From assembly GCA_015062805.1 (NCBI GenBank), contig SUTQ01000019.1, forward strand, positions 1 through 46,134: a stretch of 46,134 nt of DNA, read 5' to 3'. Under the pieces are notes generated by a model. That model saw nothing but the letters and a program-made list of their open reading frames with translations, was not told the origin of the DNA and made no database searches. Source of the DNA: Methanosphaera stadtmanae (GTDB lineage: Archaea > Methanobacteriota > Methanobacteria > Methanobacteriales > Methanobacteriaceae). Of the stretch, positions 1,625-44,005 are shown piece after piece. The translations under genes were made by a program, and so were the position numbers. Every line of letters starts with the position of its first letter. Position 1 is the stretch's first letter.

Positions 1625-1693
1625 AATCTCCAAAAAAAGAGTCTTATTTTATATAAATATTAAAATAATTTAAAAAAAAAGATATGAAGAGGA

Positions 1694-7450: not shown

Positions 7451-7475
7451 TTCAATCACCTTTTTCAATGAGAAA

Positions 7476-8030: not shown

Positions 8031-8066
8031 TTTAAATCCTGAAAATTTTAATAATAATTATATATA

Positions 8067-8080
8067 TGACTATTTAGTCA
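8067..8080. promoter_or_regulatory. Candidate TetR operator
   Basis: TGACTA-TT-TAGTCA is an inverted repeat with perfect 6-bp arms. It sits among TATA-like sequence about 37 bp upstream of the TetR start codon, where bound repressor would block TBP/TFB or polymerase. The short spacer and TGACT/AGTCA arms resemble operators of several TetR-family repressors. Binding is inferred from position and symmetry only. Confidence 0.5.
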
Positions 8081-8256
8081 ATAAATTATATATATTTATG
8101 TATTGAAAAGGAAAAAGTTAACCCTACAATTTATTACAATTACATATAGAAGTCATAATTAACAACTAAACAGACATAGCTATTTTATCTAAAAAATAAT
8201 AAATAATTAATTAACAAAATATATCTATTTGCAAACAATTAGAAAAAGGTGGGTAA

Positions 8257-9168: not shown

Positions 9169-9203
9169 ATATTTTAATAAAAAAAAAGAATTAGATTGTT
9201 TAT

Positions 9204-10340: not shown

Positions 10341-10416
10341 ATTACCACAACATATTAATTCTATAATTTCATATGTAGTTTCTTCAAAAAAAATATTACG
10401 AAAAAAAATAGTTAAA

Positions 10417-10440
10417 AAAAGACTACCATATTAGTCTTTT
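10417..10440 (-). terminator. Hairpin-T terminator overlapping the symporter stop codon
   Basis: TAGTCTTTT (10432-10440) pairs perfectly with AAAAGACTA (10417-10425) around a 6-base loop. Read on the minus strand the stem ends in a T-run, so it resembles an intrinsic terminator. It overlaps the last codons of the symporter gene. Confidence 0.5.
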
Positions 10441-11903: not shown

Positions 11904-12164
11904 CCATCTCCCCCATAATTTAATATTATTATTTATGTCTTTCTTTAGTTTTATTATTTGATAAAACTAAAAAGGATATATTATATTTTTCAATTGATTT
12001 TTTTAGTGAAAAAGAAAAAATATGAAAATGTTAAAATATTTTATCGTTCAATTCTAAATTTTTTTATAACTTCTTAAACATATACTATATTATGATGAAA
12101 AAATTTTATTAGTTAATTCTTATACTTTTAATTTATTCATTTAATTAATTAAACGGAGGATACA

Positions 12165-13856: not shown

Positions 13857-13880
13857 AAACAAAAAAATGAAGGGGATAAA

Positions 13881-15116: not shown

Positions 15117-15217
15117 ATTTAATTTACCTATTTATTCAAAAAAAATTGAAAAATGTTTTTATACAAATTTCAATTTACATCTATTTTTCTTATAATTTTT
15201 ACATTTTTATACAAATA

Positions 15218-15225
15218 CTTAAATA
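15218..15225 (+). promoter_or_regulatory. TATA box of the histone gene
   Basis: CTTAAATA, preceded by an A-rich BRE-like ACAAATA, lies about 45 bp before the histone start codon. A start site about 25 bp downstream (near 15245) would leave a short leader holding the strong AGGAGATGA ribosome-binding site at 15251-15259. Confidence 0.4.
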
Positions 15226-15265
15226 CTCCTATAACTAATATAATAAATTAAGGAGATGACAAAAC

Positions 15266-15484
15266 ATGACTGAAATACCAAAAGCACCAGTTACAAGAAT
15301 TGTTAAAAACGCAGGTGCAGAAAGAATTAGTAAAGATGCAGAAGAAAAAATTGTTGAAGCAGTAGAAGCATACACTGCAAAACTCGCTGAAGCAGTTATT
15401 GAAGTTGCAAAACACGCTGGTAGAAAAACAATTCAACCAGATGATGTAGACGTAGTTTTAAAAGTAGAAAAATTATTCAACTAA
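15266..15484 (+). CDS. Archaeal histone (HMf/HMt family)
   Basis: A 72-residue single histone fold that dimerises and wraps DNA. Conserved signatures are IVKNAGAERISKDAEEKI (first helix and loop) and AKHAGRKTIQPDDVDVVLK (third helix with the RKT-x-x-x-DD element). Length is slightly above the usual 66-69 because of a short N-terminal MTEIPKAP. AGGAGATGA precedes the ATG with optimal spacing, pointing to high expression. It is monocistronic, with a hairpin-T-run downstream. The opposite-strand Cys/Phe-rich frame here is a shadow. Confidence 0.96.
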   Translation: MTEIPKAPVTRIVKNAGAERISKDAEEKIVEAVEAYTAKLAEAVIEVAKHAGRKTIQPDDVDVVLKVEKLFN

Positions 15485-15500
15485 ATGATGAATAATAATT

Positions 15501-15540
15501 GTTAAAACACTTTTAACTAATTATACTTCATTTTTTCTTT
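15501..15540 (+). terminator. Histone gene terminator
   Basis: GTTAAAA (15501-15507) and TTTTAAC (15511-15517) form a 7-bp stem with a 3-base loop, followed by a T-rich tract ending at 15540. Confidence 0.4.
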
Positions 15541-15816
15541 TCTAACCTCCCATTAATAAAAATCTTTATTTTTATACAATGTATATTAAAATTTATATTT
15601 CTATGAAATATTTTTAATAATTAAATTAATAATTTAATACAAAAAAATAAATAAAGTATTAAATAATGTATTTTTAATTTAAGACATACTAACGTAAAAA
15701 CTAGGAGATTAAAGAAAATATTGAAATATTTTTCTAAAAATATAGTTAAGAATTATTTTTTTAAAAAAAAATGAGATTAAAAAAATAAAAATCTTAAAAA
15801 AAAATAGTTTAGGAAA
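15541..15816. other. AT-rich intergenic stretch without a recognised gene
   Basis: Together with the histone terminator this makes a 332-bp gap between the histone gene and the convergent DUF3467-like gene. It is nearly all A and T with many A/T runs. I see no tRNA-like fold, no open frame with a ribosome-binding site and no clear repeat. Confidence 0.5.
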
Positions 15817-16071
15817 TTATAGATTATTAGATTTTAAGTTATCTTCTAAAACTTGAATAATATTTCTTGCAACTTGTGGTGTCATTACCACCTGTGCAAC
15901 ACATTCTTGTACCATTTCTACATTTCCAAAATCATCACTTGATAATTTTTCTTCTAAAAATGCAACTCGGATCTGATCATGTGATCCGACACAAACAGCA
16001 CCTGAAATTGGTTTACTTGGTTCATTATTAAATTTAATTTTTGGCATTTGTGAATCTAAATTGCTATCCAT
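15817..16071 (-). CDS. DUF3467-like small protein
   Basis: An 84-residue protein. The second half (NVEMVQECVAQVVMTPQVARNIIQVLEDNL) matches the DUF3467 pattern, in which a hydrophobic strand with VVM-S/T-P precedes a helix ending in LxxNL; that family has no established biochemical function. The first five codons overlap the 3' end of the upstream regulator gene by 8 bp, and GGAAGGAT inside that gene serves as the ribosome-binding site, so translation is probably coupled. Pairing with a winged-helix protein suggests an accessory factor for it (inference). Confidence 0.7.
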   Translation of the reverse strand: MDSNLDSQMPKIKFNNEPSKPISGAVCVGSHDQIRVAFLEEKLSSDDFGNVEMVQECVAQVVMTPQVARNIIQVLEDNLKSNNL

Positions 16072-16591
16072 AGTTTATCCTTCCTTTATTAAAACCTTTA
16101 TCTATGTATTGTGTTAAAATAATATCTGTGTTTAAATTATCTGAAGAAATCATTAATGTATTATCTTCCTCATTAAAATTTCCATTATCTGTAATTGATA
16201 AATCACCTTTTTCAATTTTTTCTAATTCATTGTCAATATCAATTTCAATATCAAAGGAATCTAAAAATTTATCCAGTTCTTCATCCGTTAATGCTTCGCC
16301 AATTACATTTTCAGAATTATTTATTTCATCTTCCATAACTAATTCAGCCAATGTAATCTGAGTTTTTATTAATGCTTTTACAACTTTCGAATTGATATTT
16401 ACGTAATAAGTTAATCCATCTTTTTGTAAAATATCCATATCCTCTAAATCCGAAATAAATGAGTCTAAAGTAACGCGGGATATGTTTGCACCTACTGCTA
16501 TTTCTTTTTTTGAATAAGGTCTTCCCGGATTTATTAAAACATAATTCAATACTTTTACTTGTGGATATTTACCAAATATTCTTTCATACAT
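16064..16591 (-). CDS. Winged-helix DNA-binding protein
   Basis: A 175-residue protein. Residues 1-75 read as a winged helix: KVLNYVLINPGRPYSKKEIA, then ANISRVTLDSFISDLEDMDI as recognition region, and a beta wing LQKDGLTYYVNI. The C-terminal half is acidic (many Glu/Asp from residue 90 on) and probably mediates protein contacts. A GAGATGAT site precedes the ATG. It forms a two-gene operon with the DUF3467-like gene, overlapping it by 8 bp. Target genes are unknown. Confidence 0.72.
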   Translation of the reverse strand: MYERIFGKYPQVKVLNYVLINPGRPYSKKEIAVGANISRVTLDSFISDLEDMDILQKDGLTYYVNINSKVVKALIKTQITLAELVMEDEINNSENVIGEALTDEELDKFLDSFDIEIDIDNELEKIEKGDLSITDNGNFNEEDNTLMISSDNLNTDIILTQYIDKGFNKGRINYG

Positions 16592-16664
16592 AAAATCATC
16601 TCAAGTTTATAAATTAAACACAAATTTTTTTAAAGGTTAAAATGTACAATTTTTAAACATATTA

Positions 16665-16672
16665 TTATATAA
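16665..16672 (+). promoter_or_regulatory. TATA box suggesting a leaderless transcript
   Basis: TTATATAA is centred about 28 bp before the ATG at 16697. Archaeal transcription starts about 25 bp after the TATA centre, so the mRNA would begin at or next to the start codon. No Shine-Dalgarno sequence is visible, which agrees. Confidence 0.4.
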
Positions 16673-16696
16673 GATGAATCTAATATATAAAATTAT

Positions 16697-16954
16697 ATGA
16701 AAAGTAATTATGAAGTGGAACGGGACATTTTATCAACCCTATTTAAACATGGATGTATTGGAAAACATCATACTCCTATAATTAATCTTTGTAAAAATCT
16801 TAATCAATATTCTTGCAAAGAAATTAAAAAAGGAATTAAATCCCTACATAAAAAAAAGTATATTAACCTGTATAAAACATATCATGGGATTGATGTCAGA
16901 ATTATTCCTTCCAGTCTACAAGAGATTAAAAAGATAATCGATGTGGATTTTTAA
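16697..16954 (+). CDS. Small winged-helix-like hypothetical protein
   Basis: An 85-residue basic protein. The pattern VERDILSTLFKHGCIGKHHT, CKEIKKGIKSLHKKKYINLYK and a final strand VRIIPSS resembles a compact winged helix, so DNA binding is plausible. No named family was recognised. It has no ribosome-binding site and probably a leaderless message. It overlaps the convergent neighbouring gene by 4 bp at the 3' end and is divergent from the winged-helix/DUF3467 operon, so it could regulate it (inference). Confidence 0.6.
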   Translation: MKSNYEVERDILSTLFKHGCIGKHHTPIINLCKNLNQYSCKEIKKGIKSLHKKKYINLYKTYHGIDVRIIPSSLQEIKKIIDVDF

Positions 16955-17484
16955 AAAAACATATTGTCATGAATTTCAACAATTTTATTTTCAAATTCCG
17001 TATCAGTTATTGAACCTTCAACCAATTGAATTTTTAAATCAAAGACATTTACAAATAACGATAATTGAGGCATAATTAATTTTAACAAATAATTGACAGA
17101 TTCCATGTTTATAATTTCATCATAAATTACTGCATCATTCAAGTTCCATTTCAAGATTATTTCATCTAATTCATATTGTAATTTATCGAATAAATATAAA
17201 ACCATTAATTGAATATCCATAAATTCGTGATAGATATCCTCTTCAAAATTTTCATCCTGACCAAAAAAAGCAGATAATAATGGAAAAACTCTTTTAGAAG
17301 TATATTTAATTATTCCCGTTAATTCTACATATGTTTGTTTATCGAACACGTTTTTCTCAATAATGTTATCAAATTTTTCCACAACTTCATTATAATCTGT
17401 AAAGATCAAACGAAGGTATTTAATATATTGATTAAAATCATCATCCATTTTTAAAAAATTATCATCAATTATTTCTCCAGGCAT
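16951..17484 (-). CDS. Hypothetical acidic helical protein
   Basis: A 177-residue protein that I do not recognise. It is mostly alpha-helical and acidic, without membrane segments, cysteine motifs or a nucleotide-binding loop (for example QYIKYLRLIFTDYNEVVEKF and DIQLMVLYLFDKLQYELDEI). A GGGGAT site stands six bases or fewer from the ATG, supporting translation. It overlaps the end of the small winged-helix gene. No function is proposed. Confidence 0.65.
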   Translation of the reverse strand: MPGEIIDDNFLKMDDDFNQYIKYLRLIFTDYNEVVEKFDNIIEKNVFDKQTYVELTGIIKYTSKRVFPLLSAFFGQDENFEEDIYHEFMDIQLMVLYLFDKLQYELDEIILKWNLNDAVIYDEIINMESVNYLLKLIMPQLSLFVNVFDLKIQLVEGSITDTEFENKIVEIHDNMFF

Positions 17485-17762
17485 AGAATCCCCTTAAAAT
17501 TTTCTATTAAATCCTATATTTATAATCATATAAAAAATTTATGATAGCTATCTAAATAGCTAAAAACAATAGTATAAATATAATGAAAAACTAATAAAAT
17601 AATGTTGTTTATTTTTTTCTAAGAATTAAAATAATTTACGTTAAATGATTACTTTTATGCTTTAATTTCTAAATGATACAAATACACAGAGAATAATTAT
17701 TTAAGTCTAGAAAAAAAATATTAAGAAAAACAAGTATTATCTGAATAAGAAAGGTGAAAAAA

Positions 17763-18029
17763 ATGATTGAAGAATGCATTCCTTTTTTAGGATTAATTAT
17801 TTTTGGAAATATAGAAAACTTAGTTCTTGCTTCACATGGTGTTGTAAAAGGAGCTGATCCTAAAAAACTTGGAATATTAAGTATAATATGTGTAATAATC
17901 TGGTTTTTAATTGGTACACTAGGAACAAATTATGCAATGGCATATGCAAGTGTAATAGAATTAGTTGGAGCAATCGCAATCATAATATTAGGTCTTCAAT
18001 CAATGATTAATGCATTCAGATATCAATAA
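17763..18029 (+). CDS. Half-size membrane protein, LysE/MntP/CadD-like (first of tandem pair)
   Basis: An 88-residue protein with three predicted membrane segments (about 6-24, 36-55 and 64-82). The motifs GNIENLVL, DPKKLG, VIIWFLIGTLGT, VIELVG and ILGLQS are shared with the next gene; by hand alignment about 48 of 77 positions are identical. The segment layout, acidic residue in the first helix and G-x-x-x-x-ILGL third helix resemble one 3-helix repeat of LysE-superfamily exporters (MntP, CadD, UPF0016), which usually have two repeats in one chain. Two half-proteins may therefore form a heterodimeric exporter. Start: ATG at 17763 with AAGGTGA five bases upstream rather than the GTG at 17754. 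Substrate unknown. Confidence 0.75.
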   Translation: MIEECIPFLGLIIFGNIENLVLASHGVVKGADPKKLGILSIICVIIWFLIGTLGTNYAMAYASVIELVGAIAIIILGLQSMINAFRYQ

Positions 18030-18050
18030 TATTAAATACTAGGTGATTAT

Positions 18051-18335
18051 ATGGCATTAGACGATTATAAAGAATACCTTGGATTACTAATCTTTGGAAA
18101 CATTGAAAACTTAGTATTATCATCACAAGGTGCTGTTGCCGGCGTGGATCCTATCGTTTTAGGTTCACTTACACTTGTTGCTGTTATCATATGGTTATTA
18201 ATAGGAACCTATGGAACAAAAGTAGCTATTAAATATGCTAGAGTAATTGAATTTATTGGTGGTCTAGCAATATTTATTTTAGGACTTCAATCATTATTAG
18301 GTGCACTACCTCTTGTTATTCAACAATTCTTTTAA
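18051..18335 (+). CDS. Half-size membrane protein, LysE/MntP/CadD-like (second of tandem pair)
   Basis: A 94-residue paralogue of the preceding protein with the same three membrane segments and motifs (GNIENLVL, DPIVLG, VIIWLLIGTYGT, VIEFIG, ILGLQS). It differs mainly at both ends, with a charged MALDDYKEY start and a hydrophobic tail ending IQQFF. GGTGAT lies three bases before the ATG. The 21-bp gap to its partner and a hairpin terminator just after it define a two-gene operon. Conserved Glu/Asn in helix 1 and the Asp-Pro loop are the best candidates for ion coordination. An alternative is a membrane scaffold of unknown role. Confidence 0.75.
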   Translation: MALDDYKEYLGLLIFGNIENLVLSSQGAVAGVDPIVLGSLTLVAVIIWLLIGTYGTKVAIKYARVIEFIGGLAIFILGLQSLLGALPLVIQQFF

Positions 18336-18365
18336 ATATATGATTTAATCATATATCCTTTTTTT
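18336..18365 (+). terminator. Hairpin-T terminator after the membrane-protein pair
   Basis: ATATATGATT and AATCATATAT (18336-18345 and 18347-18356) form a perfect 10-bp inverted repeat around one base, directly after the stop codon, followed by seven T at 18359-18365. Confidence 0.55.
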
Positions 18366-18414
18366 ATAAAAATATTTAAATAATATTAGAATCATTAGTA
18401 TTTAAAAAAAAAGA

Positions 18415-21400
18415 TTATTTAGTATCATCTTTTAATGTAACGATACTACTTGAATCAATATTTAATTTATCTGAGAATCTTAAAAAGCTAATAACTTCAT
18501 TTAATTTATTAGCCGTCTTAGCAGACAATGATTTAAAACCTAATAATTTTGAAACCAATTTGGCTAATTGATCTATTTTAACAGAATTGTTAAGTATTAA
18601 AACTTGTGTGATAGCTTCTATAATCTCATCATCAGATATGTAATCTATATTTGGTTTAATTCTTTTTCTTACGACAATTTCTTTTTTGAATATGTAATAA
18701 TAATTATTTTTAACATATATTTCATGTGAATGTTGCAACAATGATGAAATCATTGTATCAATAGAAGACTTAAATTTTTTAGTTGCTTTAACATCATATA
18801 CCTTTTTCAATCGGTTATATATTTCTTCACGGTGAATAGGTGCTTCAATCCTGATTATATCTTCAATAACCTCAATAACCTCTGAATTATTTAAAGAATA
18901 AAAGTCTTCACAGTCTATATTATTCTCATAATATATGTAATCTTTATCCGTAGAAGGTTGATCTACTTCAACTTTTTTAACCTGAACTTTAGATTTTACT
19001 TTATCCTCATTTGATTCAGATTGTTTTTTCATTTCTTCTACTTTATCAGTATCTTGAATTGATTGTTCAACAGACTGAACATCATCCGATTGTCCGATAG
19101 AAAGATTTTCTTCAATTTTAACTTCTTCCATTACTTCAAAATCATCATCCGAATCAATAGAATTTTTTCCTCTTATTTCTTTTAAATCATGAATAATTAC
19201 ATTATCAGAATCTTCTTCATCAAGTACTTCAAATATCTCATCAAATTCATCAAATGAACCTTTTTCTTCATTGATTTGATTTGGAACATCAGATTTAGAA
19301 GAATCTTTTACTACACTTTCTTTATGAGATGAGTTTAAATTTTCAATAGAATTATTTTCAACATTCTCTTCTTTTACTTTATCAACAACAATTGTATCCT
19401 CATTTATCTCATCAAGAGTTTTGATACTTTGTTCTTTGTTTTTAATAGCTTCATTTATCGCATTAAGTAAATTTTGTTTTGCATTTTGTCTGTTATGATA
19501 CCATTCTGTTGACCAAATTCTATGATAATTCCATCCCAATCCTTCCAACATGTTTTGTCGAATTCTATCTCTTTCTCTGGCAGATGCACCATCGTTATAT
19601 TCTGTACCATCACATTCTATTGCCAAGATATATTCATCGTCATTATTAGGATCCAATACTGCCAAATCAACACGATAACCAGAACATCCAACTCTTTTTT
19701 CAACTTTATATCCTTTTTTTATCAAGAAATTATAAACTGATTTTTCGAACTCTGAATCGAATTTTTGTTCTTCCATGAAATTTGATGGGAATCTTCCATG
19801 CTCTGCATAGTATAAGTATGTTTTTAGCACTTGTACACCCTTAGGTGATCTTGGTGAAAGATGCATGTCAGAAGATTTAAAGTTAGCAAAGACTATACAT
19901 TTTTCTTTAGCACGTGTTGTTAATACGTTTAATCTTCTTTCTCCACCATCATTATTTAATGGACCAAAGTTACTGGATAAATTATGTGTTTCATCAAAAC
20001 CATAACCTACACTAATTAACATTACGTCTCTCTCATCACCCTGAATGTTTTCAATGTTCTTAACAAAGAATGCTTTATCTCCCGTAGAGTTGAAATATGG
20101 GTCAAGTTCAGGATTTTCTTTGAGTTTTAATTCTAATTCTTCAAGTATTGCTTGTTTTTGTGCTACACTGAATGTACCTATTCCTAAACTTTTTTGGAAT
20201 CCATATTTTCCAAAGTGCTGCAATGCGTATTCAACTACTTCCTTTGCTTCACCCTTATTTTGTCTGGTTTTTCCTTTATCATATATGTTATTTGGATTAT
20301 AGACTAATTTAAGACCCAAGTTTTCTGAATTGATTATGGGAGATGGATATATAAACAAATCATTATTATAGAATTCCAAATTTGAAACTGCAATTAAAGA
20401 CTCATGTCTACTTCGGTAATGGCATTTCAACATCCTATATGGTAAAACGGTTTTACAGAAATGAAGAATGCTTTCAACATCCTGAACATGCATATCTTCC
20501 GCTTCTTGAGATTCTATGTTAGTTTCAACATCAAAGAAAGCTGTTGGAGGCAACTGTTTTGTATCTCCCATGATTATATAATGTTTTCCTCTTAATAATG
20601 CACCTATAGCATCTTCAATTTTTACCTGACTAGCTTCATCAAAAATTATATAATCAAAGTAAGATTCAAATGTCTTTGTATCCAGATATTGAGCTATAGA
20701 CAAAGGACTCATAAGTAAACATGGTTTGATATCAGTAATGACATCATTACATTCCTTCAATATTTGTCTAATAGATTTGTGATTTCGCTTCTTATTCATT
20801 TCATGAACTAGTATACCCAGCTGTGAAGTTGGAGCAATACTTATGGATAAATCTGGCCTTTGATTATCCAATATCTCTTTAACCCTATATTTATTGAGAT
20901 CAATTGTTTGAACATCTAATTCTTTGAACAATTGAATATTCTTTTCATATATGTTTGAGTTAAAATTCTTTAATATTTCATGTTTATCAAATATTTCTAT
21001 CAAAATATTGTTAGCAAAGTTAAACTCAAATAATGGTACGATGGCATCAGCCTTGATTTTATCATTTTTAATGAGTTTAATGATTTCACTAGTATAATTA
21101 TTTTTAAATTGAGAACAATACGTGTTAAATTGACTCCAATCACTTAATGAACGAATATTTTCTGTAATACTTTGAATAATTCCATTAAAATCTTCAAGTT
21201 TGATAGAATTTATATTATTTTCACTAAGTTTATTTTTAAAATGTAATAATGAATTAAGATAATCATAATCTTCTGCTATTTCACCATATTTGACTTCTAA
21301 ATCATCTATAATTAGTTTTAATTCATCTTTACTAAAGTTATCAATTATTACTCTATTAGAATTATCTTCTTTAACATACTTTGAGATACCCTCATATTCA

Positions 21401-23778
21401 CTAACCAATTTCGAGAAGTCAGTATCAACGTTGTTCCATGATTTAAAATATTTTTTGGCTGTAGATTCATTTTCATCAATGAATTTCTTTAATTCTTTTT
21501 GTTTGTATAATAAATCAACATGGAACTCTATATCATCTAATGTTTTGAAATAATCCTTTTTGAAAATTTTTGATACCTTAGCATTTATTTCATTTAAATC
21601 ATCAAAAAGATTAATTAATCTTTCCAATTCATAGATAACTTTTTCAGCAACTAAATTGTTAGATGTATAATAAGGCAATACTGTATTAATTACTCCATTT
21701 ACATCGTCATTCCACATGAATAAATTATCAAAATCTTCTGTTATGGTATTATCATCAACATCCTGAGAATAATAACTTTTTAATTCATTTTTAGATCTTT
21801 TATAATCCTTATTCATGAATTTAGTAAAGGAATCCTTATTTGATTTGAATTGATAGAACTTTTGAACTATATCAGGATCATTTAATGCTCTTTTAACCGG
21901 AGATTCCTGTAGTGATTTGTAAGCTTCTTTGATTTTATTAAGTAATGATCTTGCTTCATGATGAAACATGAAATCAGAAGAGATTTCAGAAGATCGTATT
22001 TTAAATAACAATTGATCTGCTTTCTCTTTAATCGGTTCTATATCTATTTTATTGATATCAATGGCATTATTGAAATTATTTTGATATTCCTGTACTGAAT
22101 CAACTATCTGTTTTAATTTTCCATCTTCTAAAGAATAATCTTGGTCAGATAATGCTAATCTAGCTTGTTGTATATATTTTTTAATTTCACCATATTTGAC
22201 TGGTTTTTGAAGATTGGTTTTATGACTGAATTCTTCAATATCCTGTTGAACATGTTCCATGTGACTATCTATTTCAGATGATTTAAAATTAATGTTATCT
22301 ATATCATCCGGTGAAAGATAATTAATATTAGTATAGTTCCAAGGATTATCCTTAATTGGACTAATTAATTTATATATTTCTGCAATTTCATCTATGTTTG
22401 ATACAAGCTCTGAACGTTTTTTAGGGGTATAATTTTTTAGACTAGGCAAGTTAAATTTATACACCCTCTGACCAATTTTTTCAAGTTCTTGATAATTTAA
22501 TTCATACATTCCTATTAAATCATAAATGGATAAGTTAGTATCACCATATTTTGTTCGAATAAGTTGCCTATATTCATTTAAATTACTAATTGATTGCTGA
22601 AGTTTTTCATAATCTTCATAATCATCAACTTCAACTTTATCCATTAATAATGATTTGTTTAAATCATCTAGGAAAGATCTCTTCCTTGTTTTATTGCTGT
22701 GTAACTCCAAACAATAACTTCCTAAACCAACACTATCCATCCTTTTTTTAACAACATCAAGTGCAGCCATCTTTTCACTAACGAATAATATTTTTTTTCC
22801 GTTAGCCAATAATTCAGATATTAAATTTACAATTGTTTGAGATTTACCAGTACCTGGAGGACCTTCAACTACAAGACTATGACCCTTTTTAGCATCTTCT
22901 ATTACAGCGATTTGTGAAGAATCTGCATCAACAACATTATAATTGTCAATAGGATTTAAATCTTCATCAATAGATTTAACATTGAATGAATCAAAACTAT
23001 CAACTTCACTTAAACCAAATAATCTACCAATTTCACTTTTTTCTATATGATCCCAGTTTTCTATCGATAAATCTTTGAACATTACAAATTTTTTGAAACT
23101 AAATGTGCTGATATATGCCTGACTAAGAACATTCCATCCTTTTTTGAATTCGATTGCCCGTTTAACTTGATTAATATACTCAACCAAATCGTTTTTATTT
23201 TCTATACTGTTTTGTTCAGGTAATATTATCCCTTGTTCCTGAAGTTTATGCTTTAATGATAAATTTAATGAAATATCTTCACTAGTCCAATGAACCTTAA
23301 AAGGTGAACCAACTGATCTTCTTGATAATTCTATTGGAACTAAGACTAATGGTGCTTTATGGGTTGAATTATCCTTTTGTTGTTTCCATTCAACAAAACC
23401 TAATGCTAAAAACAGATTATTGTAACCCAAATCCTGTACACTTGTTCTGAAATACTGGAATAATGAAAATAATCTTTTTTGAAGTTCTTTTTCTGTTAAT
23501 GTTGTTTGTAACTGTAAATCTTCATCTTTATCTGAATCGATAGGTATTGACCATATTCCATCTTCTGAATCTTTAGATGAAGATTTAGGTAAAAAAGATA
23601 ATTTATTCTTATTTAAAACTAATGAATCATAAAGATCCATTATATCTACATCAACAATAGGAACAGTTCTAGCAACTTCTTTAAAATTAAGTAAATTATT
23701 CCTTAAACCCATATCTAAAAGGTTTTGCTGTAAAGTGTTGAATACATCATTAAAGTCTAATTTAGAACGTTCTTCCAT
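18415..23778 (-). CDS. Giant SF1 helicase-nuclease (DUF4011 - AAA_11/12 - DUF559-like - DUF3320)
   Basis: A 1787-residue protein. The N-terminus (LQQNLLDMGLRNNLLNFK) is DUF4011. The helicase core starts with Walker A GPPGTGKS at 306-313; a long coiled-coil insertion (about 370-1020) separates it from the DEAD-box equivalent YIIFDEASQVKIEDA, then MGDTKQLPP, YRSRHESL, IENIQGDERDV and LTTRAKEKCIVFAN. A PD-(D/E)xK nuclease of the MTES_1575/DUF559 (Vsr-like) type follows near 1360-1440 (GYRVDLAVLD, AIECDGTEY, RIWSTEW). After an acidic linker (about 1470-1640) comes DUF3320 (VIEDIIRIEAPIHREEIYNR) and a final helical segment. Such Upf1-like helicase-nucleases are common in prokaryotic defence islands; cleavage of foreign nucleic acid is the likely role (inference). 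GGGAT precedes the ATG. All visible catalytic motifs are intact. Confidence 0.9.
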   Translation of the reverse strand: MEERSKLDFNDVFNTLQQNLLDMGLRNNLLNFKEVARTVPIVDVDIMDLYDSLVLNKNKLSFLPKSSSKDSEDGIWSIPIDSDKDEDLQLQTTLTEKELQKRLFSLFQYFRTSVQDLGYNNLFLALGFVEWKQQKDNSTHKAPLVLVPIELSRRSVGSPFKVHWTSEDISLNLSLKHKLQEQGIILPEQNSIENKNDLVEYINQVKRAIEFKKGWNVLSQAYISTFSFKKFVMFKDLSIENWDHIEKSEIGRLFGLSEVDSFDSFNVKSIDEDLNPIDNYNVVDADSSQIAVIEDAKKGHSLVVEGPPGTGKSQTIVNLISELLANGKKILFVSEKMAALDVVKKRMDSVGLGSYCLELHSNKTRKRSFLDDLNKSLLMDKVEVDDYEDYEKLQQSISNLNEYRQLIRTKYGDTNLSIYDLIGMYELNYQELEKIGQRVYKFNLPSLKNYTPKKRSELVSNIDEIAEIYKLISPIKDNPWNYTNINYLSPDDIDNINFKSSEIDSHMEHVQQDIEEFSHKTNLQKPVKYGEIKKYIQQARLALSDQDYSLEDGKLKQIVDSVQEYQNNFNNAIDINKIDIEPIKEKADQLLFKIRSSEISSDFMFHHEARSLLNKIKEAYKSLQESPVKRALNDPDIVQKFYQFKSNKDSFTKFMNKDYKRSKNELKSYYSQDVDDNTITEDFDNLFMWNDDVNGVINTVLPYYTSNNLVAEKVIYELERLINLFDDLNEINAKVSKIFKKDYFKTLDDIEFHVDLLYKQKELKKFIDENESTAKKYFKSWNNVDTDFSKLVSEYEGISKYVKEDNSNRVIIDNFSKDELKLIIDDLEVKYGEIAEDYDYLNSLLHFKNKLSENNINSIKLEDFNGIIQSITENIRSLSDWSQFNTYCSQFKNNYTSEIIKLIKNDKIKADAIVPLFEFNFANNILIEIFDKHEILKNFNSNIYEKNIQLFKELDVQTIDLNKYRVKEILDNQRPDLSISIAPTSQLGILVHEMNKKRNHKSIRQILKECNDVITDIKPCLLMSPLSIAQYLDTKTFESYFDYIIFDEASQVKIEDAIGALLRGKHYIIMGDTKQLPPTAFFDVETNIESQEAEDMHVQDVESILHFCKTVLPYRMLKCHYRSRHESLIAVSNLEFYNNDLFIYPSPIINSENLGLKLVYNPNNIYDKGKTRQNKGEAKEVVEYALQHFGKYGFQKSLGIGTFSVAQKQAILEELELKLKENPELDPYFNSTGDKAFFVKNIENIQGDERDVMLISVGYGFDETHNLSSNFGPLNNDGGERRLNVLTTRAKEKCIVFANFKSSDMHLSPRSPKGVQVLKTYLYYAEHGRFPSNFMEEQKFDSEFEKSVYNFLIKKGYKVEKRVGCSGYRVDLAVLDPNNDDEYILAIECDGTEYNDGASARERDRIRQNMLEGLGWNYHRIWSTEWYHNRQNAKQNLLNAINEAIKNKEQSIKTLDEINEDTIVVDKVKEENVENNSIENLNSSHKESVVKDSSKSDVPNQINEEKGSFDEFDEIFEVLDEEDSDNVIIHDLKEIRGKNSIDSDDDFEVMEEVKIEENLSIGQSDDVQSVEQSIQDTDKVEEMKKQSESNEDKVKSKVQVKKVEVDQPSTDKDYIYYENNIDCEDFYSLNNSEVIEVIEDIIRIEAPIHREEIYNRLKKVYDVKATKKFKSSIDTMISSLLQHSHEIYVKNNYYYIFKKEIVVRKRIKPNIDYISDDEIIEAITQVLILNNSVKIDQLAKLVSKLLGFKSLSAKTANKLNEVISFLRFSDKLNIDSSSIVTLKDDTK

Positions 23779-23925
23779 AAAATCCCTGTAAATAATACAA
23801 TTAAATTTAAAAAAATTATAAAATATTTATCTTTAAAAAAATTCTTATATTATGATATGTAAATAACAAATATTATAATTTAGTATTGAAATATGAAAAA
23901 GAATTATCGAATCATTGGTGAAAAT

Positions 23926-24249
23926 ATGGAAGAAGTAATTAAAAAAATTATAAAATTTAGAGATGATCGTGACTGGAAACAGTTTCAGACATTAGAAAAC
24001 TTAGCAAAATCAATTTCCATCGAATCAGCCGAATTACTAGAAAATTTTCAATGGGATGATAATTACGATATAGAACACGTTGAAGAAGAATTAGCAGATG
24101 TTCTCATATATTCATATCTAATGGCAATTACTATGAATGTAGATGTTAAAGAAATTATGCTTAAAAAAATAGAAAAAAATGAGAAAAAATATCCTGTTGA
24201 AAAGTCTAAAGGAAAATCAGCCAAATATACTGAATTACTTACGCTTTAG
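23926..24249 (+). CDS. MazG-like nucleotide pyrophosphohydrolase
   Basis: A 107-residue all-alpha NTP pyrophosphohydrolase of the MazG/dCTPase (RS21-C6-like) class. The metal-binding signature is present: ESAELLENFQW (ExxE), then 20-odd residues on, EEELADVLIYSYLMA (ExxD). It hydrolyses (d)NTPs to monophosphates, and removes non-canonical nucleotides in characterised relatives. The start is set at 23926, where GGTGA lies four bases upstream and MEEVIKKIIKFRDDRDW matches family N-termini; an ATG at 23893 in the same frame lacks a site. It is divergent from the helicase-nuclease gene with 147 bp between starts, and overlaps the convergent HerA-like gene by 15 bp. Confidence 0.85.
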   Translation: MEEVIKKIIKFRDDRDWKQFQTLENLAKSISIESAELLENFQWDDNYDIEHVEEELADVLIYSYLMAITMNVDVKEIMLKKIEKNEKKYPVEKSKGKSAKYTELLTL

Positions 24250-25836
24250 TTGACCAAATATACCTCTGACAATTTGTCTAGAGACTTCCCTAACAACAGT
24301 ATTTGCGGCATTAGTAGCTATCCTTTCCATTTCTGATTTTCCTGTAGTACTCTGACTGGTTCTACCTCTTTTTGTGGTTTTGGTTAAATCTATATTGTCC
24401 ATAGTTTGTTGAAGAACATCAGGTAATGGGAAACCACCTTGTTTTTGTTCTGTTTGAGGAATTTGTTGTTGATTCTGATAAGCTGAATTGTCTTGTGGCT
24501 GATAATCTTGAGGATTATATTGGCCCATATCTTGAACGGGTGCTTGCTGTACTTTTTGTAAAAGACGTTCGTAAGCAGATTCCCTATCCAACATTTCCTG
24601 ATATTTTACTTTTAACAATGAAATATTAACAATTTGTTCCCTATATGAATCTTCAATTGCCCCGCTATAACATTGTGGAGGTATAATATCAACTTTTTCT
24701 ACAATGGTAGGAACTCCTTCTTTATCCAAGACAGATACCAATGCTTGACCTATTCCCAAATTAGATATTTCATCCGCAGTATCGAAATTAGGATTTGGCC
24801 TAAATGTTTCGGCAGCTACTTTAACAGCTTTCTGATCTTTTGGTGTGTAAGCCCTCAATGCATGTTGAATTCTATTTCCTAACTGTGATAATATCTCATC
24901 AGGAATATCTGTTGGACTTTGTGTAATGAAATACAAACCAATTCCTTTGGAACGTATTAATCGTACAATTTGTTCAATTTTTCTCTGGAAAACTGGATTC
25001 ATATTATCAAATAATAAATGAGCTTCATCGAAGAAGAAAACAAATTTTGGTTTCTCAAGATCCCCAACTTCTGGCATGGATTCAAAGATTTCTGTTAACA
25101 TCCATAACAAGAATGTTGAATATAAGTCAGGTGCCAAAGATAATTTTACAGAATCAAATACGTTAATTATACCTTTACCATTATCATCACATTGAAGGAA
25201 ATCATTTAATTCCAAAGCAGGTTCACCAAAGAATTTATCCCCACCCTGTTCTTCTAAAGTTAACAGTGAACGTAATATAGTATTTGCTGATTTTGTTGCA
25301 ATTGCCCCGTATTGTGGTTCATATCTTTCCCTATTTTCAGTAACATAATTTATCATAGATTTCAAATCTTTAATATCTATTAACAATAAGGATTCAGAGT
25401 CTGCTACTTTAAAAATTATGTTTAATACACCAGCCTGAGCTTCACTGAGTCTTAATATTTTTGATAACAAAATAGGACCCATTTGTGAAATTGTTACTCT
25501 GATAGGTAATCCTTTTTCACCAAATAAATCCCAAAATTCTACAGGATATCCTTTGAAACTAAATCCTTTAGATTGTAAATCATATTTTTCAACTCTTTTA
25601 GAAACATTTTCGTTAGGTTCACCTGCTTTTGATAAACCTGCTAAATCCCCTTTCATATCTGCAACAAATACTGGAACACCCATATCACTAAATGATTCAG
25701 CTAATGCCTTTAAGGTATATGTTTTTCCTGTTCCTGTTGCACCAGCTATTATTCCATGCCTATTTGCCAATTTAGGATGTAACGTTACACATGTTTCATC
25801 ATTACATCCAATTAATATAGAATCTTCAGTATACAT
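24235..25836 (-). CDS. HerA-like ATPase, DUF853 family
   Basis: A 533-residue FtsK/HerA-type P-loop ATPase of the DUF853 (YjgR-like) family. Walker A is GATGTGKT at 32-39 following NRHGIIA; VADMKGDLAGLS is characteristic; Walker B is FVFFFDEAHLLFDNMNPV near 265; sensor-type region GIGLYFITQSPTDIPDEIL follows. The C-terminus is Gln/Pro-rich and disordered (about 425-475) and ends in a basic tail. Relatives are hexameric motors on DNA or protein; DUF853 proteins themselves have no settled function. GGAGA precedes the ATG. Adjacent to MazG and the helicase-nuclease, it may belong to a DNA-processing or defence locus (inference). Confidence 0.88.
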   Translation of the reverse strand: MYTEDSILIGCNDETCVTLHPKLANRHGIIAGATGTGKTYTLKALAESFSDMGVPVFVADMKGDLAGLSKAGEPNENVSKRVEKYDLQSKGFSFKGYPVEFWDLFGEKGLPIRVTISQMGPILLSKILRLSEAQAGVLNIIFKVADSESLLLIDIKDLKSMINYVTENRERYEPQYGAIATKSANTILRSLLTLEEQGGDKFFGEPALELNDFLQCDDNGKGIINVFDSVKLSLAPDLYSTFLLWMLTEIFESMPEVGDLEKPKFVFFFDEAHLLFDNMNPVFQRKIEQIVRLIRSKGIGLYFITQSPTDIPDEILSQLGNRIQHALRAYTPKDQKAVKVAAETFRPNPNFDTADEISNLGIGQALVSVLDKEGVPTIVEKVDIIPPQCYSGAIEDSYREQIVNISLLKVKYQEMLDRESAYERLLQKVQQAPVQDMGQYNPQDYQPQDNSAYQNQQQIPQTEQKQGGFPLPDVLQQTMDNIDLTKTTKRGRTSQSTTGKSEMERIATNAANTVVREVSRQIVRGIFGQLKRK

Positions 25837-25966
25837 ATTGATTTCTCCATTTAGAACTTTATTGTTAATTTATCTGTAAATGACTATTAAAATATTTAAT
25901 TGAATAATGTAATTGAAAAAAAAGAAATGAAAATGAGTAGTTATAGTTAAAAAAAATTTATATTAA

Positions 25967-38672: not shown

Positions 38673-38987
38673 TTAAAATAAGGGAACTAAAGAGTAAACA
38701 GTGATTAATACAATTACTGTGATTATAACAATTGCTCCAAGAGGAACTTTTTTCCAGGATAGTCCCGCAGCAACAATTGCGCCAATTAAACCAATATACC
38801 ATAATTGATTATCTACTGTTAGTACCCCTGGAATTATTAAAGCGCTTAGAGCCGTATATGGAATTAAATCAAGAAACTTTTCAGTTTTTTTACTAAAATT
38901 AATTTGTCCCACAAATATTGATGGTATTAATCTTGGAATAAATGTTACCAGTGCACATCCCAATATTACCATGTCTGCAGTGTTCAT
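38673..38987 (-). CDS. azlD: AzlD-family branched-chain amino acid exporter subunit
   Basis: A 104-residue protein with four membrane segments. NTADMVILGCALVTFIPRLI at the start and DLIPYTALSALIIPGVL in the middle are AzlD signatures. AzlD partners with AzlC for amino acid efflux. Its ATG overlaps the azlC stop codon (ATGA, 38984-38987), so translation is coupled. Substrate assignment rests on the family only. Confidence 0.88.
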   Translation of the reverse strand: MNTADMVILGCALVTFIPRLIPSIFVGQINFSKKTEKFLDLIPYTALSALIIPGVLTVDNQLWYIGLIGAIVAAGLSWKKVPLGAIVIITVIVLITVYSLVPLF

Positions 38988-39685
38988 TTAATTCCCCCAT
39001 CATCTGTTAAAAAATATGCATCATTTATCAAGTATACTCCAATTAATGCACCCAACAATGTTGATACAATTATGGACCAGTTTCCAATTATAGTTTGCAA
39101 TATTATGTTCATTATTCCAGTTATTATAACAAGTAATCCTATTCTATAGTTTTTCTTGACATTTGGTATTAAAATTGCAACAAATAATGCATATAATGAA
39201 ATGTTAAAACTGTTTGTAACAATAACAGGTAATAAATCCAATACAAAAACTCCAATTGCTGCACCCAATATCCAAGATAACCAGGAAGTTAATGATAATC
39301 CGACATATGTCCAAATTGATGATTCATCCATTAAAGAAAACATTGCAAATGATTCATCTGTAGTTAAATGACACGACAATGCATTTAACAAAGGAGAAGT
39401 CTTTTGAACCTTATTATATACACAGACATTCATAACAAAATATCTTAAATTAACAACAAAATTAGTTAATATGATTGCAAAAGCTGTAGCACCATTTAAA
39501 AGCATAGTGACAGCAATAATCTCCCCAGCACCCGCATATACAAGAATTGAAAATCCAACAGTTTGTAAAGGAGTTAATCCTGCTTTAATAGCTAATGCAG
39601 CATAACCAATACCCATAGGTATATATCCCATAGTAATAGGTATTGCTTTTTTAAATCCAAAAATAAATTCATCTTTTTTAGACAA
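38984..39685 (-). CDS. azlC: AzlC-family branched-chain amino acid exporter subunit
   Basis: A 233-residue membrane protein with about six segments. GFKKAIPITMGYIPMGIGYA, QTVGFSILVYAGAGEIIAV, LTNFVVNLRYFVMNVCVY and the CHLTTDESFAMFSL loop are AzlC hallmarks. The start codon is TTG (39683-39685) with AGGAGT about ten bases upstream. It forms a two-gene operon with azlD downstream. The promoter must lie in the AT-rich gap beyond 39686. Confidence 0.9.
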   Translation of the reverse strand: MSKKDEFIFGFKKAIPITMGYIPMGIGYAALAIKAGLTPLQTVGFSILVYAGAGEIIAVTMLLNGATAFAIILTNFVVNLRYFVMNVCVYNKVQKTSPLLNALSCHLTTDESFAMFSLMDESSIWTYVGLSLTSWLSWILGAAIGVFVLDLLPVIVTNSFNISLYALFVAILIPNVKKNYRIGLLVIITGIMNIILQTIIGNWSIIVSTLLGALIGVYLINDAYFLTDDGGIK

Positions 39686-40088
39686 TATAATAACGACTCC
39701 TTTAGTATAAAAATAAATATATGTTTAAAATGATATAAATAATTAATTTATTGAAAAGATTTAAATTATTAATTCATTACAATTATGAGGTAAATATACT
39801 GAATTGAAAATTTTATTTCATTATGTAATAATGTTTTTTATCATTAATTGATGAATAATCAACATTCCATATATATTAAAGATATAATAATATAATTTCT
39901 ATTAAAATTTTTAATAATAAAAAAAATATCAATTGAAACAGATACAGAAATAAAACTAAAACTGTTAAAATTAGTAATTCTTAAGTACCTTTTATAAATT
40001 CTATTTTGTTCAACTAATATTTACTAAAAGATTCAATCGGAAAAAAATTATAAAAAAATTAATAATAAATGTATTATAAAAAGTTTTC
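39686..40088. other. AT-rich gene-free stretch
   Basis: This is the divergent gap upstream of azlC and the secreted-protein gene. It has only very short frames and no tRNA-like fold. It should hold the azlC promoter on the minus strand. I see nothing else definite apart from the tandem repeat that begins at its right end. Confidence 0.45.
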
Positions 40089-40157
40089 ATAAAAAACATA
40101 TTTATAATAAAAAGTTTAAATAAAAAACATATTTATAATAAAAAGTTTAAATAAAAA
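40089..40157. repeat. 31-bp tandem repeat with TATA-like core
   Basis: Two exact 31-bp copies (40089-40119 and 40120-40150) are followed by a partial third. Each begins ATAAAAAACATATTTATAAT and ends AAAAAGTTTAA, so each carries a TATA-like TATTTATAA. They end about 20 bp before the start codon at 40176. Copy-number change could alter promoter strength. Confidence 0.7.
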
Positions 40158-40175: not shown

Positions 40176-40313
40176 ATGTCAAAGAAATTTTTAATTAGTA
40201 TATTAGTATTAATATGTTTCATTACTCTAGCTAGTGTTAGTGCTGAGATAACAGCTCACAAAATTCTTTGTCAAATGATAGCAGTACAACAGATGCTAAT
40301 ACACCAAGTTTAG
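40176..40313 (+). other. Signal-peptide reading frame, out of frame with the downstream secreted-protein frame
   Basis: An ATG at 40176, preceded by GAGGT, opens a 45-codon frame. Its first 23 residues (MSKKFLISILVLICFITLAS, then VSA) are a textbook Sec signal peptide, after which the frame runs into an unrelated sequence and stops at 40311-40313. Without the dinucleotide GA at 40245-40246 (GCTGAGATAAC read as GCTGATAAC) it would continue directly as ...VSA-DNSSQNSLSND... into the frame at 40268-40882. This is best read as the 5' part of one gene split by a 2-bp insertion, or by a sequencing error or slippage site. Confidence 0.7.
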
Positions 40314-40882
40314 AAAATATGTTAAATGCTAATAATGGAAATGAAAACTCACAATCAACTAATGGTTTTTCCATGGATAATATGGCTGGAATGAACATGT
40401 CAGACATGATTCCAGGAATGAACATGTCAGATATGATTCCAGGAATGAACACATCCGCATCCAATGATACAACACCAGAAACTAGTTCAAATAACAATGA
40501 TCAACAAGGTAATACCCAACCAGTATCACATACACAAAAACAGAAAGAAGTCAAACAAAATCCAACAAAAATAACTAACAACCAACAAAAAGTATATAAA
40601 ACTCATACAATCAAAAAAACTAGTGATAATAGTGTTGTTTATCAAGGAAACTCATTGACATTAGATGCAATAAATAAAATATTCGGTCAAAATATTACAA
40701 ATGGACATTTAGTCGTCTTCATGGATGGTCAAGTAATATTCAATGACACTGTAAGTAATGATTTATCAATGACTATATTACAACTCATTGAAAAATATCT
40801 CGGTAATCATAAAATTAAAATAGAATTTACCGATGCTAATAACAATACAAATACCTATGAAGAAGATATAATTATCGAATAA
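40268..40882 (+). CDS. Secreted Asn/Thr/Met-rich protein with C-terminal Ig-like domain; signal peptide frameshifted
   Basis: A 204-codon frame from an in-frame TTG that has no ribosome-binding site; the real start is probably the ATG at 40176 in another frame (see that entry). The body is rich in Asn, Ser, Thr and Gln (surface-protein composition). It holds a Met-rich tandem repeat (GMNMSDMIP twice, about residues 41-58), a Lys/Gln-rich linker, and a C-terminal domain of about 85 residues (SLTLDAINKIFGQNITNGHL, VFMDGQVIFNDTVSND, KIEFTDANNNTNTYEED) that looks like an Ig-like beta-sandwich of methanogen adhesins. Conserved coding character after the shift suggests a recent lesion, programmed slippage or assembly error. 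Confidence 0.65.
   Translation: MSNDSSTTDANTPSLENMLNANNGNENSQSTNGFSMDNMAGMNMSDMIPGMNMSDMIPGMNTSASNDTTPETSSNNNDQQGNTQPVSHTQKQKEVKQNPTKITNNQQKVYKTHTIKKTSDNSVVYQGNSLTLDAINKIFGQNITNGHLVVFMDGQVIFNDTVSNDLSMTILQLIEKYLGNHKIKIEFTDANNNTNTYEEDIIIE
40388..40450 (+). repeat. 27-bp in-gene tandem repeat (Met-rich nonapeptide)
   Basis: Two near-identical 27-bp copies (40388-40414, 40415-40441; one C/T difference) and a partial third encode GMNMSDMIP repeats. The period is a multiple of three, so copy changes would keep the frame. Confidence 0.75.
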
Positions 40883-41394: not shown

Positions 41395-42219
41395 TTATTT
41401 AGATTTTAATTTACTATAGAAATATGAAGCTGTAGCTCCACCATCAATAAGAAAATCTGAACCAGTTATGAAAGCTCCATTTTCATTAAGCATTAATTGT
41501 GCAAGATTTGCTACTTCATCTGCCGTTCCTGGCCTTCCTGATGGACAATTTGCAAACATATTTTTATAGAAATCTCCACGTGGACCATTAAATTCATCAA
41601 TTGCCAGTGGTGTTACAATTATTCCCGGAGATATTGAGTTTATTCTTGCATTTCTTTCGCCCCATTTACATGCTTCATACATTACTCTTTTTACATTACA
41701 CCTTTTTGCAAGTTGATAAGCATGTAATGTGTCTTTAATGTTTTCGGGCTGTAAAATATCCAAATCAAGTAATTCTTCTGTTGGTGTTGTGGCTAATTGT
41801 TCATCAATACTTGCTCCCAATTGTTTCATCCTATGTCCTGACTGTGAAGATATGGTAACTCCACTTCCACCTTCTTTTATTACTTTACCTATTTCTTCCA
41901 ATAATACTGCTGTTCCATAAAGATCTACTTTAAGAATAGTTTCTATACTTGCTTGTGAAGGAGAAACTCCTGCTGCATTAATAAAGTTACTTATTTCTCC
42001 ATAATCCTGAGAAGTTTTAATTAAGTTTTTTATAGATAATCTGCTGGAAATATCACATTCAAGATATTCAACATCAAAACCTGATTCAATCATAGTTTTT
42101 GATATTTTTTCAGCATTTTCAATGTTTTTATCCCCAATTATTAATTTTTTACCGTAACTTATTCTTCTTGCAATTGCCATTCCTATTTGTCCAGCCCCTG
42201 TTAAAACAACAACACCCAT
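41395..42219 (-). CDS. Short-chain dehydrogenase/reductase, paralogue A
   Basis: A 274-residue SDR. The nucleotide-binding turn is VVLTGAGQIGMAIAR (a GAGxxG variant of the usual TGxxxGxG), the stabilising element is INAAGVSP, the catalytic Ser lies in TISSQSGH and the Tyr/Lys pair in YQLAKRCN. ARINSISPGIIVTPLA and GSDFLIDGGATAS close the fold. The start at 42219 follows GGAGG by seven bases; an upstream frame extension to 42276 has no site. Paralogous to the SDR at 44006-44860. It follows the iron-sulfur aldo/keto reductase by 46 bp. Substrate unknown. Confidence 0.88.
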   Translation of the reverse strand: MGVVVLTGAGQIGMAIARRISYGKKLIIGDKNIENAEKISKTMIESGFDVEYLECDISSRLSIKNLIKTSQDYGEISNFINAAGVSPSQASIETILKVDLYGTAVLLEEIGKVIKEGGSGVTISSQSGHRMKQLGASIDEQLATTPTEELLDLDILQPENIKDTLHAYQLAKRCNVKRVMYEACKWGERNARINSISPGIIVTPLAIDEFNGPRGDFYKNMFANCPSGRPGTADEVANLAQLMLNENGAFITGSDFLIDGGATASYFYSKLKSK

Positions 42220-42265
42220 ACTAATTCCTCCATTTAACAATTTTCCCATTTTTTGCTTAATTAAC

Positions 42266-43381
42266 TTATTTTTCAAATAAATTGACTACTTTCTCTAATT
42301 CTTCAGTAATATTAATCTGTTGAGGACATACTTTTTCACATGCACCACATTTTACACAAGAGGATGCTTTTGTAAATTTTTCTGCATAATTATCATAATA
42401 TAAATAATTTAACATTTGATCTACTTTGGACTGTTTTTCATCGTTGAAAATTGAGAAATATTTTGATATAGGAATTTGTTTAGGACAATATTTAAAACAA
42501 TAATCACAGTATGTGCATGGAATTTCAATGGAATCATTTATTATATCACGTGCTTGTTTAATTATTTCCAATTCATCGTTATTCATTGTCTTAAAATCTT
42601 TAACTATACTCATATTTTCCTGAAGTTCTTTTAGATCAGACATTCCACTTAGTACTAATGCTACTGAACTTAAATTTAAGACATAGGATAATGCCCAATT
42701 AACTGGACTTTTTTGGTTATAACTTTGAAATAATTTTTCTACTTTTTCTGGAACATTAACTAAATTTCCACCTTTTAATGGCTCCATAACAAATACATCC
42801 AATCCATTATCCTTAACTATCTCATAACATTTTTTAGCTTGAACTGCATCGTTTTTCCAATCAACATAATTAATTTGAAGTTGTACAAATTCTATATCCT
42901 GGTTTTCTGTCAATACTTGATTTAAAGCTTCAGGAGTTCCATGATGACTTATACCTAATTTATTAATTAAACCTTCCTTTTTAAATTCCCTTAAATAATC
43001 AAATACGTTTAACTGTTTACAAACACCATTATAAAATAGATCAGAAGTATTATGAACCAAATAATAATCGAAATAATCCAATCCACACCGTTCCAATTGT
43101 GTTTGAAAAATATTTTCCGGATTATCATTGATTGTCATTCCATATATTGGCATTTTATCAGCAATTAGAACTTCATCACGAGAATATCTATCTATTACAC
43201 ATTTTTTAATAGCTTCTTCACTTTTTCCATTATGATAATTAAAACCCGTATCAAAATAACGGCCACCATTTTCAATATAATAATCTACAAGTGTATTAAC
43301 TTTATTATAATCTATTTGACTTACATCACCATTTATAATAGGTAATCTCATAAATCCAAAACCTAACTTAAAATCATTCAT
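42266..43381 (-). CDS. Aldo/keto reductase with C-terminal 2x[4Fe-4S] domain, second copy
   Basis: A 371-residue paralogue of the protein at 6293-7450, colinear throughout. Barrel motifs: KLGFGFMRLP at the start, YFDTGFNYHNGKSEE (Asp/Tyr), IADKMPI (Lys) and YYLVHNTSD (His). The C-terminus has CTYCDYCFKYCP and CVKCGACEKVCP, ligands for two clusters. The N-terminus MNDFKLGFG sets the start and supports the GTG start chosen for the other copy. It lies 11 bp downstream of the broken nitroreductase gene and upstream of the SDR, suggesting a redox operon. Confidence 0.88.
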   Translation of the reverse strand: MNDFKLGFGFMRLPIINGDVSQIDYNKVNTLVDYYIENGGRYFDTGFNYHNGKSEEAIKKCVIDRYSRDEVLIADKMPIYGMTINDNPENIFQTQLERCGLDYFDYYLVHNTSDLFYNGVCKQLNVFDYLREFKKEGLINKLGISHHGTPEALNQVLTENQDIEFVQLQINYVDWKNDAVQAKKCYEIVKDNGLDVFVMEPLKGGNLVNVPEKVEKLFQSYNQKSPVNWALSYVLNLSSVALVLSGMSDLKELQENMSIVKDFKTMNNDELEIIKQARDIINDSIEIPCTYCDYCFKYCPKQIPISKYFSIFNDEKQSKVDQMLNYLYYDNYAEKFTKASSCVKCGACEKVCPQQINITEELEKVVNLFEK

Positions 43382-43392
43382 TCAAACCACTC

Positions 43393-43919
43393 CTAAAAAA
43401 AATCATTATGAATATTTTCAATATGTAATTTATCTTCAGAATATTCTTTTTTAAATTCGCCTTTTTGACCTAATGCAATACAATTTAACACTCGAAAATT
43501 ATCAGGAACATTCAATAATTCCCTGATTTCTTCATCAGCACTTTTAACTTGTCCTGCACGGTTTCTTATGTGAATCCAACATGCTCCAATATTAAATTGT
43601 TCTGCAGCAAGTAAGATATAAGTAGATGCAACAGATGCATCTTCTATCCAAAGTTCACAATTTGAAGTATCCACCATTACACAATACATACATTTGATTG
43701 AATTAATGGATTTGCACCCATAGCTTTACAATGAGCTATCTCCCGAATCATTTCTTTATCTTTTACCACAACGAAATGTACGGGATGTTCTCCCCAAGAT
43801 GAAGGTGCTGTTAAAGCTATTTTTAGTATTTCATTAATGGTATTGTCTTCAATTTCATCAGTAAGAAAAATCCGAGTAGATCTTCTTTTTAATGTTAAAT
43901 CCAATAAATCATTGCTCAT
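43393..43919 (-). pseudogene. Nitroreductase-family gene split by a frameshift
   Basis: The 5' part (43919 to about 43681) encodes MSNDLLDLTLKRRSTRIFLT, then ILKIALTAPSSWGEHPVHFV and GANPLIQSNVCIV before a stop. The 3' part (frame open through 43393) encodes VMVDTSNCELWIEDASVAST, ILLAAEQFNIGACWIHIRNR and a typical nitroreductase tail. Together they make one FMN-dependent nitroreductase of about 175 residues. Restoring one G in GTGTAATGG (to GTGGTAATGG) joins the halves exactly between V-C-I-V and V-M-V-D, so a 1-bp deletion at about 43684-43689 explains the break. Start ATG 43919 follows GGGAT. It is either a recent pseudogene or a sequencing error. Confidence 0.8.
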
Positions 43920-44005
43920 AATATCCCAAACAAAAATAGATAATATAATATTTGTATTACTAAGTTTATATTTATACACAATCGAAATAAAAAAAAAAAT
44001 AATAA

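Follow-up and report, generated by a model that had tools for sequence, protein, structure and literature searches.

Probable recent disablement of a gene for a small secreted protein in Methanosphaera stadtmanae

The window, by which we mean the whole analysed stretch of 46,134 nucleotides, is one contig (C50) of a 2.12-Mb Methanosphaera stadtmanae genome in 50 contigs. Two of its open reading frames (ORFs) raise the question of whether they represent one gene or two and, if one, what has happened to it. The first (40176-40313, + strand) opens with the signal peptide-like stretch MSKKFLISILVLICFITLASVSA, while the second (40268-40882, + strand, 204 aa) is in a different frame; they overlap at 40268-40313. 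A preliminary description had interpreted them as a signal peptide and a surface-type protein separated by insertion of a GA dinucleotide (in GAGA at 40245-40248). Phase variation by short-repeat slippage, a fresh pseudogene, and a base-calling error were offered as causes. The features of the locus are as follows.

40072..40157, no strand assigned: upstream A+T-rich tandem array (31-bp unit, 2.8 copies, TRF score 151)
40176..40244, + strand: signal peptide-coding gene start (MSKKFLISILVLICFITLASVSA), conserved by relatives, ending VSA then A(D/N), as judged by alignment only
between 40245 and 40246, + strand: lesion, one base fewer than in genomes G003, G006, and G012 according to DNA alignments
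40247..40882, + strand: body frame, open from 40247 to the stop codon at 40880-40882 (211 aa open frame)
40388..40451, + strand: Met-rich in-frame repeat (27-bp unit, 2.4 copies)
40604..40879, + strand: C-terminal module of about 90 residues, shared with further secreted proteins from Methanosphaera and at least one related genus

The 5′ part of the gene was searched for in 20 genomes of the genus, including that of the window. Three other genomes (G003, G006, and G012) carry it over at least 221 of 227 bases; four further genomes show short matches only (up to 59 bases). In G003, a single 324-aa ORF (L005 1030-2004) covers signal, repeat, and module. In G006, one frame runs from the signal into the first portion of the body, in a 170-aa ORF that lacks the module. 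In G012, the frame is continuous through the junction, after which the contig ends. Comparison at the sequence level shows that the two frames of the window, with the coordinates originally given for signal peptide and body, correspond to one gene in these relatives.

DNA alignments place an extra C between 40245 and 40246 in G003, G006, and G012. Because all three other carriers have one base more at the junction, the event, as judged from these alignments, is the loss of one base after 40245 in the window and not the gain of a GA. The GAGA at 40245-40248, which is indeed present, is then a by-product of the loss; it is unremarkable in itself, since the window has 79 occurrences of GAGA on its + strand. 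With respect to the frame, a one-base loss has the same outcome as a two-base insertion; it is the event that differs. A single base loss would account for the arrangement in one step.

Because of the lesion, signal peptide and body are in different frames, and the shifted frame stops at 40313. As assembled, the sequence specifies a 45-aa product from the normal start, plus a body frame without signal, so that the protein would lack export as the sequence stands, just as the preliminary description had it. The TTG at 40268 is only the start chosen by the ORF caller, the body frame being open upstream of it to 40247. The downstream frame had also been called intact and domain-bearing. It is open up to its stop codon and carries the C-terminal module. 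The same split arrangement is found in none of the three other carriers, although a different module gene from G003 (L115, discussed below) does show it.

The signal peptide of the window gene was judged by alignment with relatives, which have a conserved hydrophobic N-terminus. The protein layout, also taken from relatives, consists of a signal peptide, a low-complexity Met-rich repeat, a polar linker, and the C-terminal module. Judged from these relatives, the predicted gene product is a small secreted Methanosphaera protein. The G003 homologue shares all four elements with the window gene but differs from it by its continuous frame, many more repeat units, and different neighbours. Length variation of the Met-rich repeat is in frame, the repeat of the window gene being 30 bases shorter than that of G006. 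The G003 homologue matches the pentapeptide repeat family PF00805 with 26.9 bits (cut-off 20.2), but no single stretch passes and the match covers the biased Met-rich repeat; Pfam gave no PF00805 match for the window protein. The only named record found at this locus among genome contigs is Methanosphaera sp. MAG Tb.RUG.228 (G006). Viral contigs contained no exact match to a 24-base pattern, and among the titles listed in a literature search on the gene, none deals with it.

The copy from G006 (L032 1634 onwards) is the closest counterpart, with the same neighbours and 97.4% DNA identity over a 7.5-kb alignment. Window positions 25948-46134 are about 97% identical to G006 contigs C61 and C58, whereas aligned parts of window positions 6329-25955 show 84-89% identity to another G006 contig (C99). 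Beyond base 7,620 of C58, there are scattered matches of 74-81% and, from about base 14,250, matches of 82-86% to contig C32 from the genome of the window. Because a block with about 97% identity is flanked by sequence with 74-89%, the gene appears to sit in a block that was recently shared by two species, with the identity shift located inside C58. The exchange with G006 covers 20 kb or more and is mosaic inside, its genes being 0 to 9% different.

Unlike the window, the G006 copy keeps the junction intact, but single bases are missing from it at two other sites, opposite window positions 40612 and 40751, and these two losses sever the C-terminal module. When polarised with G003, the loss at 40245 falls on the branch of the window and the losses at 40612 and 40751 on that of G006. 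Six substitutions in the gene are assigned to the window branch and five to the G006 branch, with two assigned to neither. The G006 contig has multi=42.9, which makes a low-coverage error unlikely as the source of its lesions.

Frame-disabling one-base losses occur at six positions in the block: 26621, 36436, 40245, 40612, 40751, and 43679. The window accounts for two of them, one in this gene and one in the nitroreductase (43679). The four G006 losses comprise two in this gene, one in a class I/II aminotransferase (26621), and one in a 237-aa gene (36436). Three of the six coding losses thus hit this gene; the clustering has p = 0.001 when this gene is specified and p = 0.058 when any gene is allowed. 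Excluded from this count were 25968 (block edge), the pair 34864/34873 (which cancel each other), 40410/40412 (30 bases together, in frame), 42213-42251 (differing 5′ end of the SDR gene), and 43394 and 43943 (gene ends). The nitroreductase gene (43393-43979, - strand) is in two frames after the one-base loss past 43679, while its G006 homologue is one 199-aa frame. On G006 contig C61, the aminotransferase gene (L069 11671-12854) has fallen into two ORFs of 176 and 186 aa, and the counterpart of the 237-aa gene (L069 2416-3057) is shortened to 213 aa.

Between the window and G006, the gene shows nine nonsynonymous and two synonymous changes over 557.7 and 132.3 sites, respectively (dN/dS 1.07); a MAFFT-based count gave 11 and two. 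The 22 other block genes, pooled with the nitroreductase scored as two pieces, have 144.3 nonsynonymous and 251.7 synonymous changes (dN/dS 0.14). The difference is significant (Fisher p = 0.003), the contrast being one of 11 changes between two broken copies, and it is similar for a less diverged subset of block genes (dN/dS 0.12, p = 0.002). Compared with G003, the window body has a dN/dS of 0.21 and the signal part of 0.32. Because the value is 0.21 against G003 but 1.07 between the two copies, the gene seems to have been constrained earlier and freed recently in one or both lineages. A dN/dS of about 1 makes a real lesion more likely, but it is no proof of the lesion in the window because the break in G006 alone would already raise it.

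We thus consider it probable that the window carries a recently disabled gene (a pseudogene) for a small secreted Methanosphaera protein. The fresh pseudogene is the best supported of the causes that had been offered because the sister copy is broken elsewhere, dN/dS is about 1, and the other clear module genes of this genome look broken too (see below). The G003 homologue looks functional, with its full length of 324 aa in one frame, while the window copy is interrupted, at a site where none of the three other carriers has a lesion. The otherwise open body frame implies a recent loss. According to this scenario, a gene that was once constrained would have been part of a 20-kb block recently shared by two Methanosphaera species; after sharing, its copies would have drifted and failed at different sites in each lineage. 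In the window, loss of one base in the signal cleavage region would end translation after 45 codons. A body without export signal would presumably yield no exported product, which would represent loss of function and not regulation. A secreted product with the C-terminal module would be expected in neither lineage. The simplest account may be a dispensable surface protein that was lost from an eroding set.

The main rival is a sequencing or assembly error by which one base was dropped, the protein of the strain being intact and exported. Just one base is at stake, the remaining frame is open, and a one-base difference from G006 splits a second window gene as well, the nitroreductase. The site, however, is outside any homopolymer, and the G006 copy is independently broken, with a dN/dS of about 1. 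Moreover, none of the 12 genes from window positions 1-25950 with a homologue in the G006 stretches is split, and the flags in the C9 sample (0/7 and 1/8 one way; 1/16 the other way) are all at stretch edges. The split-gene script has limited sensitivity, having missed the aminotransferase at 26621, which is broken in G006. A base-calling error is thereby weakened, and we regard it as rather unlikely.

A broader version of gene loss involves the C-terminal module. At E <= 0.001, a module profile built from 20 copies has matches in 38 of 119 family genomes, which belong to 3 of 17 genera. Strong ones, with E below 1e-20, come only from the genus of the window and genus g4, with 10 genomes each; those in the third genus are all weak. 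All 22 full-length modules that were examined end 0-3 residues from the stop codon, and they are carried by diverse proteins: this small protein, but also large papain/lectin-like and other long secreted proteins. The module is a candidate sorting or attachment domain. Module rows are window 40604-40879, L005, L007-L011, L013-L017, L024, L107-L109, and L111-L126.

In a Pfam scan of 20 module rows, nine matched Imm42 (PF15593) at E up to 1, with one above the cut-off (L027, 27.7 vs 27.2 bits, E 4.4e-6, half of the profile) and no match in the module of the window itself. When 19 module rows were re-scanned, no family besides Imm42 was above the Pfam cut-off; Big_13 showed a weak match below it in one row (L002). 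A distant kinship to Imm42 is possible, and the module is not filed as Imm42. NCBIfam had nothing above cut-off for five proteins, and PDB yielded two chance-level matches only for the module (E 0.86 and 0.91). A single-sequence AlphaFold2 model of the module is poor (pLDDT 41).

All four clear module copies in the genome of the window look broken (this gene and those on contigs C17, C9, and C43). In the C17 copy, an in-frame stop separates the module from a 921-aa ORF with papain and lectin-like domains; the ORF listings disagree for C17 (1065 vs 125 aa), and the stop was taken from the DNA read directly. On this contig (G000 C17, L104 about 1000-4142, - strand), the module is in frame past the stop, behind the 921-aa surface protein. 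The module pieces on C9 and C43 are decayed, with two and three stops, respectively (four in another C43 count). Weak module matches were not counted (C25 in the genome of the window, E 3.4e-5; 1259870 and 582926 in G003). In G003, 10 of 14 clear module copies share one frame with a hydrophobic N-terminus of the signal type; the other four comprise two short frames, a copy whose module contains a stop, and L115. The difference in intact copies (0/4 in the genome of the window vs 10/14 in G003) has p = 0.023 in a comparison chosen after the data were seen. Counting L115 as an open frame gives 11/14 (p = 0.011), but its signal is in the other frame, hence 10/14.

In L115 (G003:C1:16500-21500, - strand), the signal peptide, which ends AISA, and the open body (about 1148 aa) are in different frames. 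The frame change, at about 3762-3942 (- strand), is spanned by a 24-bp repeat (2.3 copies); because the unit length is divisible by three, gain or loss of units would leave the frame as it is. From its own sequence, we interpret L115 as another small indel in a family undergoing erosion. With L115 as a second case, a systematic cause acting near signal peptides may be involved. It is also conceivable that the module is a sorting or attachment tag which needs a partner, and that this lineage has lost either the partner or the need for one. Module proteins would then decay together and the frameshift would be a sign of a collapsed surface-display route, but this scenario we consider improbable.

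Under phase variation, export would be switched ON and OFF reversibly as GAGA or the tandem repeats of the gene slip. This would suit a surface-type protein for which upstream and body tandem repeats differ among genomes. A two-copy 8-bp repeat (40194-40209) lies some 36 bases before the lesion, and G003 L115 likewise has signal and body in different frames, beside a 24-bp repeat. According to excerpts from PMC3711429, however, phase variation needs a tandem repeat near the site, and here the nearest is this two-copy 8-bp repeat. At the site itself there is no repeat beyond GAGA, which by comparison with relatives arose from the base loss and, with its two dinucleotide units, does not make a slippage tract. 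No array extends over 40245, and what distinguishes the relatives is a single base outside any repeat. The 8-bp repeat owes its perfection to a substitution at 40206 on the branch of the window, and the stretch is equally long in G006. The 30-base difference in the body repeat between window and G006 keeps the frame, and the lesions of the two copies are at three separate sites. Slippage, as it had been proposed, is thus very unlikely to explain the split. Programmed frameshifting, or re-initiation at 40268, by which the split would be functional, is equally hard to credit: the ORFs do share 40268-40313 and the body has kept an open frame, but no slippery heptamer was seen by eye at GCTGAGATAAC, re-initiation would give a protein without signal peptide, and a programmed site should be conserved (PMC3711429, in part), which this one is not because it is absent from all three other carriers.

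The pseudogene reading has a precedent. According to excerpts from PMC5814497, an adhesin-like protein (ALP) gene from M. smithii KB11 (BK798_03360) is disrupted by a frameshift compared to the type strain. As in the window, a gut methanogen surface-protein gene is intact in one strain and frameshifted in another; the intact counterpart, however, has 2,879 aa with DUF11 domains, and the two are likened by description only. With such a case already on record in that source, the lesion itself is of little import. The parts of PMC13135261 that we used report more pseudogenes and adhesin-like proteins in intestinal Methanobacteriota. ALPs of Methanobacteriales, as described in excerpts from Gupta and Seedorf 2024 (PMC11532034), resemble the window gene in having an N-terminal signal-like helix and a repetitive extracellular body. 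The protein of the window differs from them in being small. An ALP would also be expected to have an archaeal big domain, which according to the same excerpts has no Pfam model, or a right-handed beta-helix; the observations that bear on this are the poor AlphaFold2 model of the module and the Big_13 match of L002 below the cut-off.

For annotation, the consequence is one gene minus one base instead of two ORFs, and no slippage switch. The locus is a clear small case of a secreted-protein gene that fails at different sites in two species after sharing of a 20-kb block. It also draws attention to a poorly classified C-terminal module, of which the four clear copies in one genome look broken.

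The gene is alone on the + strand, its neighbours being azlC (38984-39685, - strand) and a short-chain dehydrogenase gene (41395-42276, - strand). There is no tRNA gene in the window. A promoter scan found nine sites versus 10.9 expected, the promoter model being bacterial, and the same scan revealed no terminator-like site. The 31-bp array is located directly 5′ of the gene and could affect its expression; it is shorter in G006, as seen from an alignment gap.
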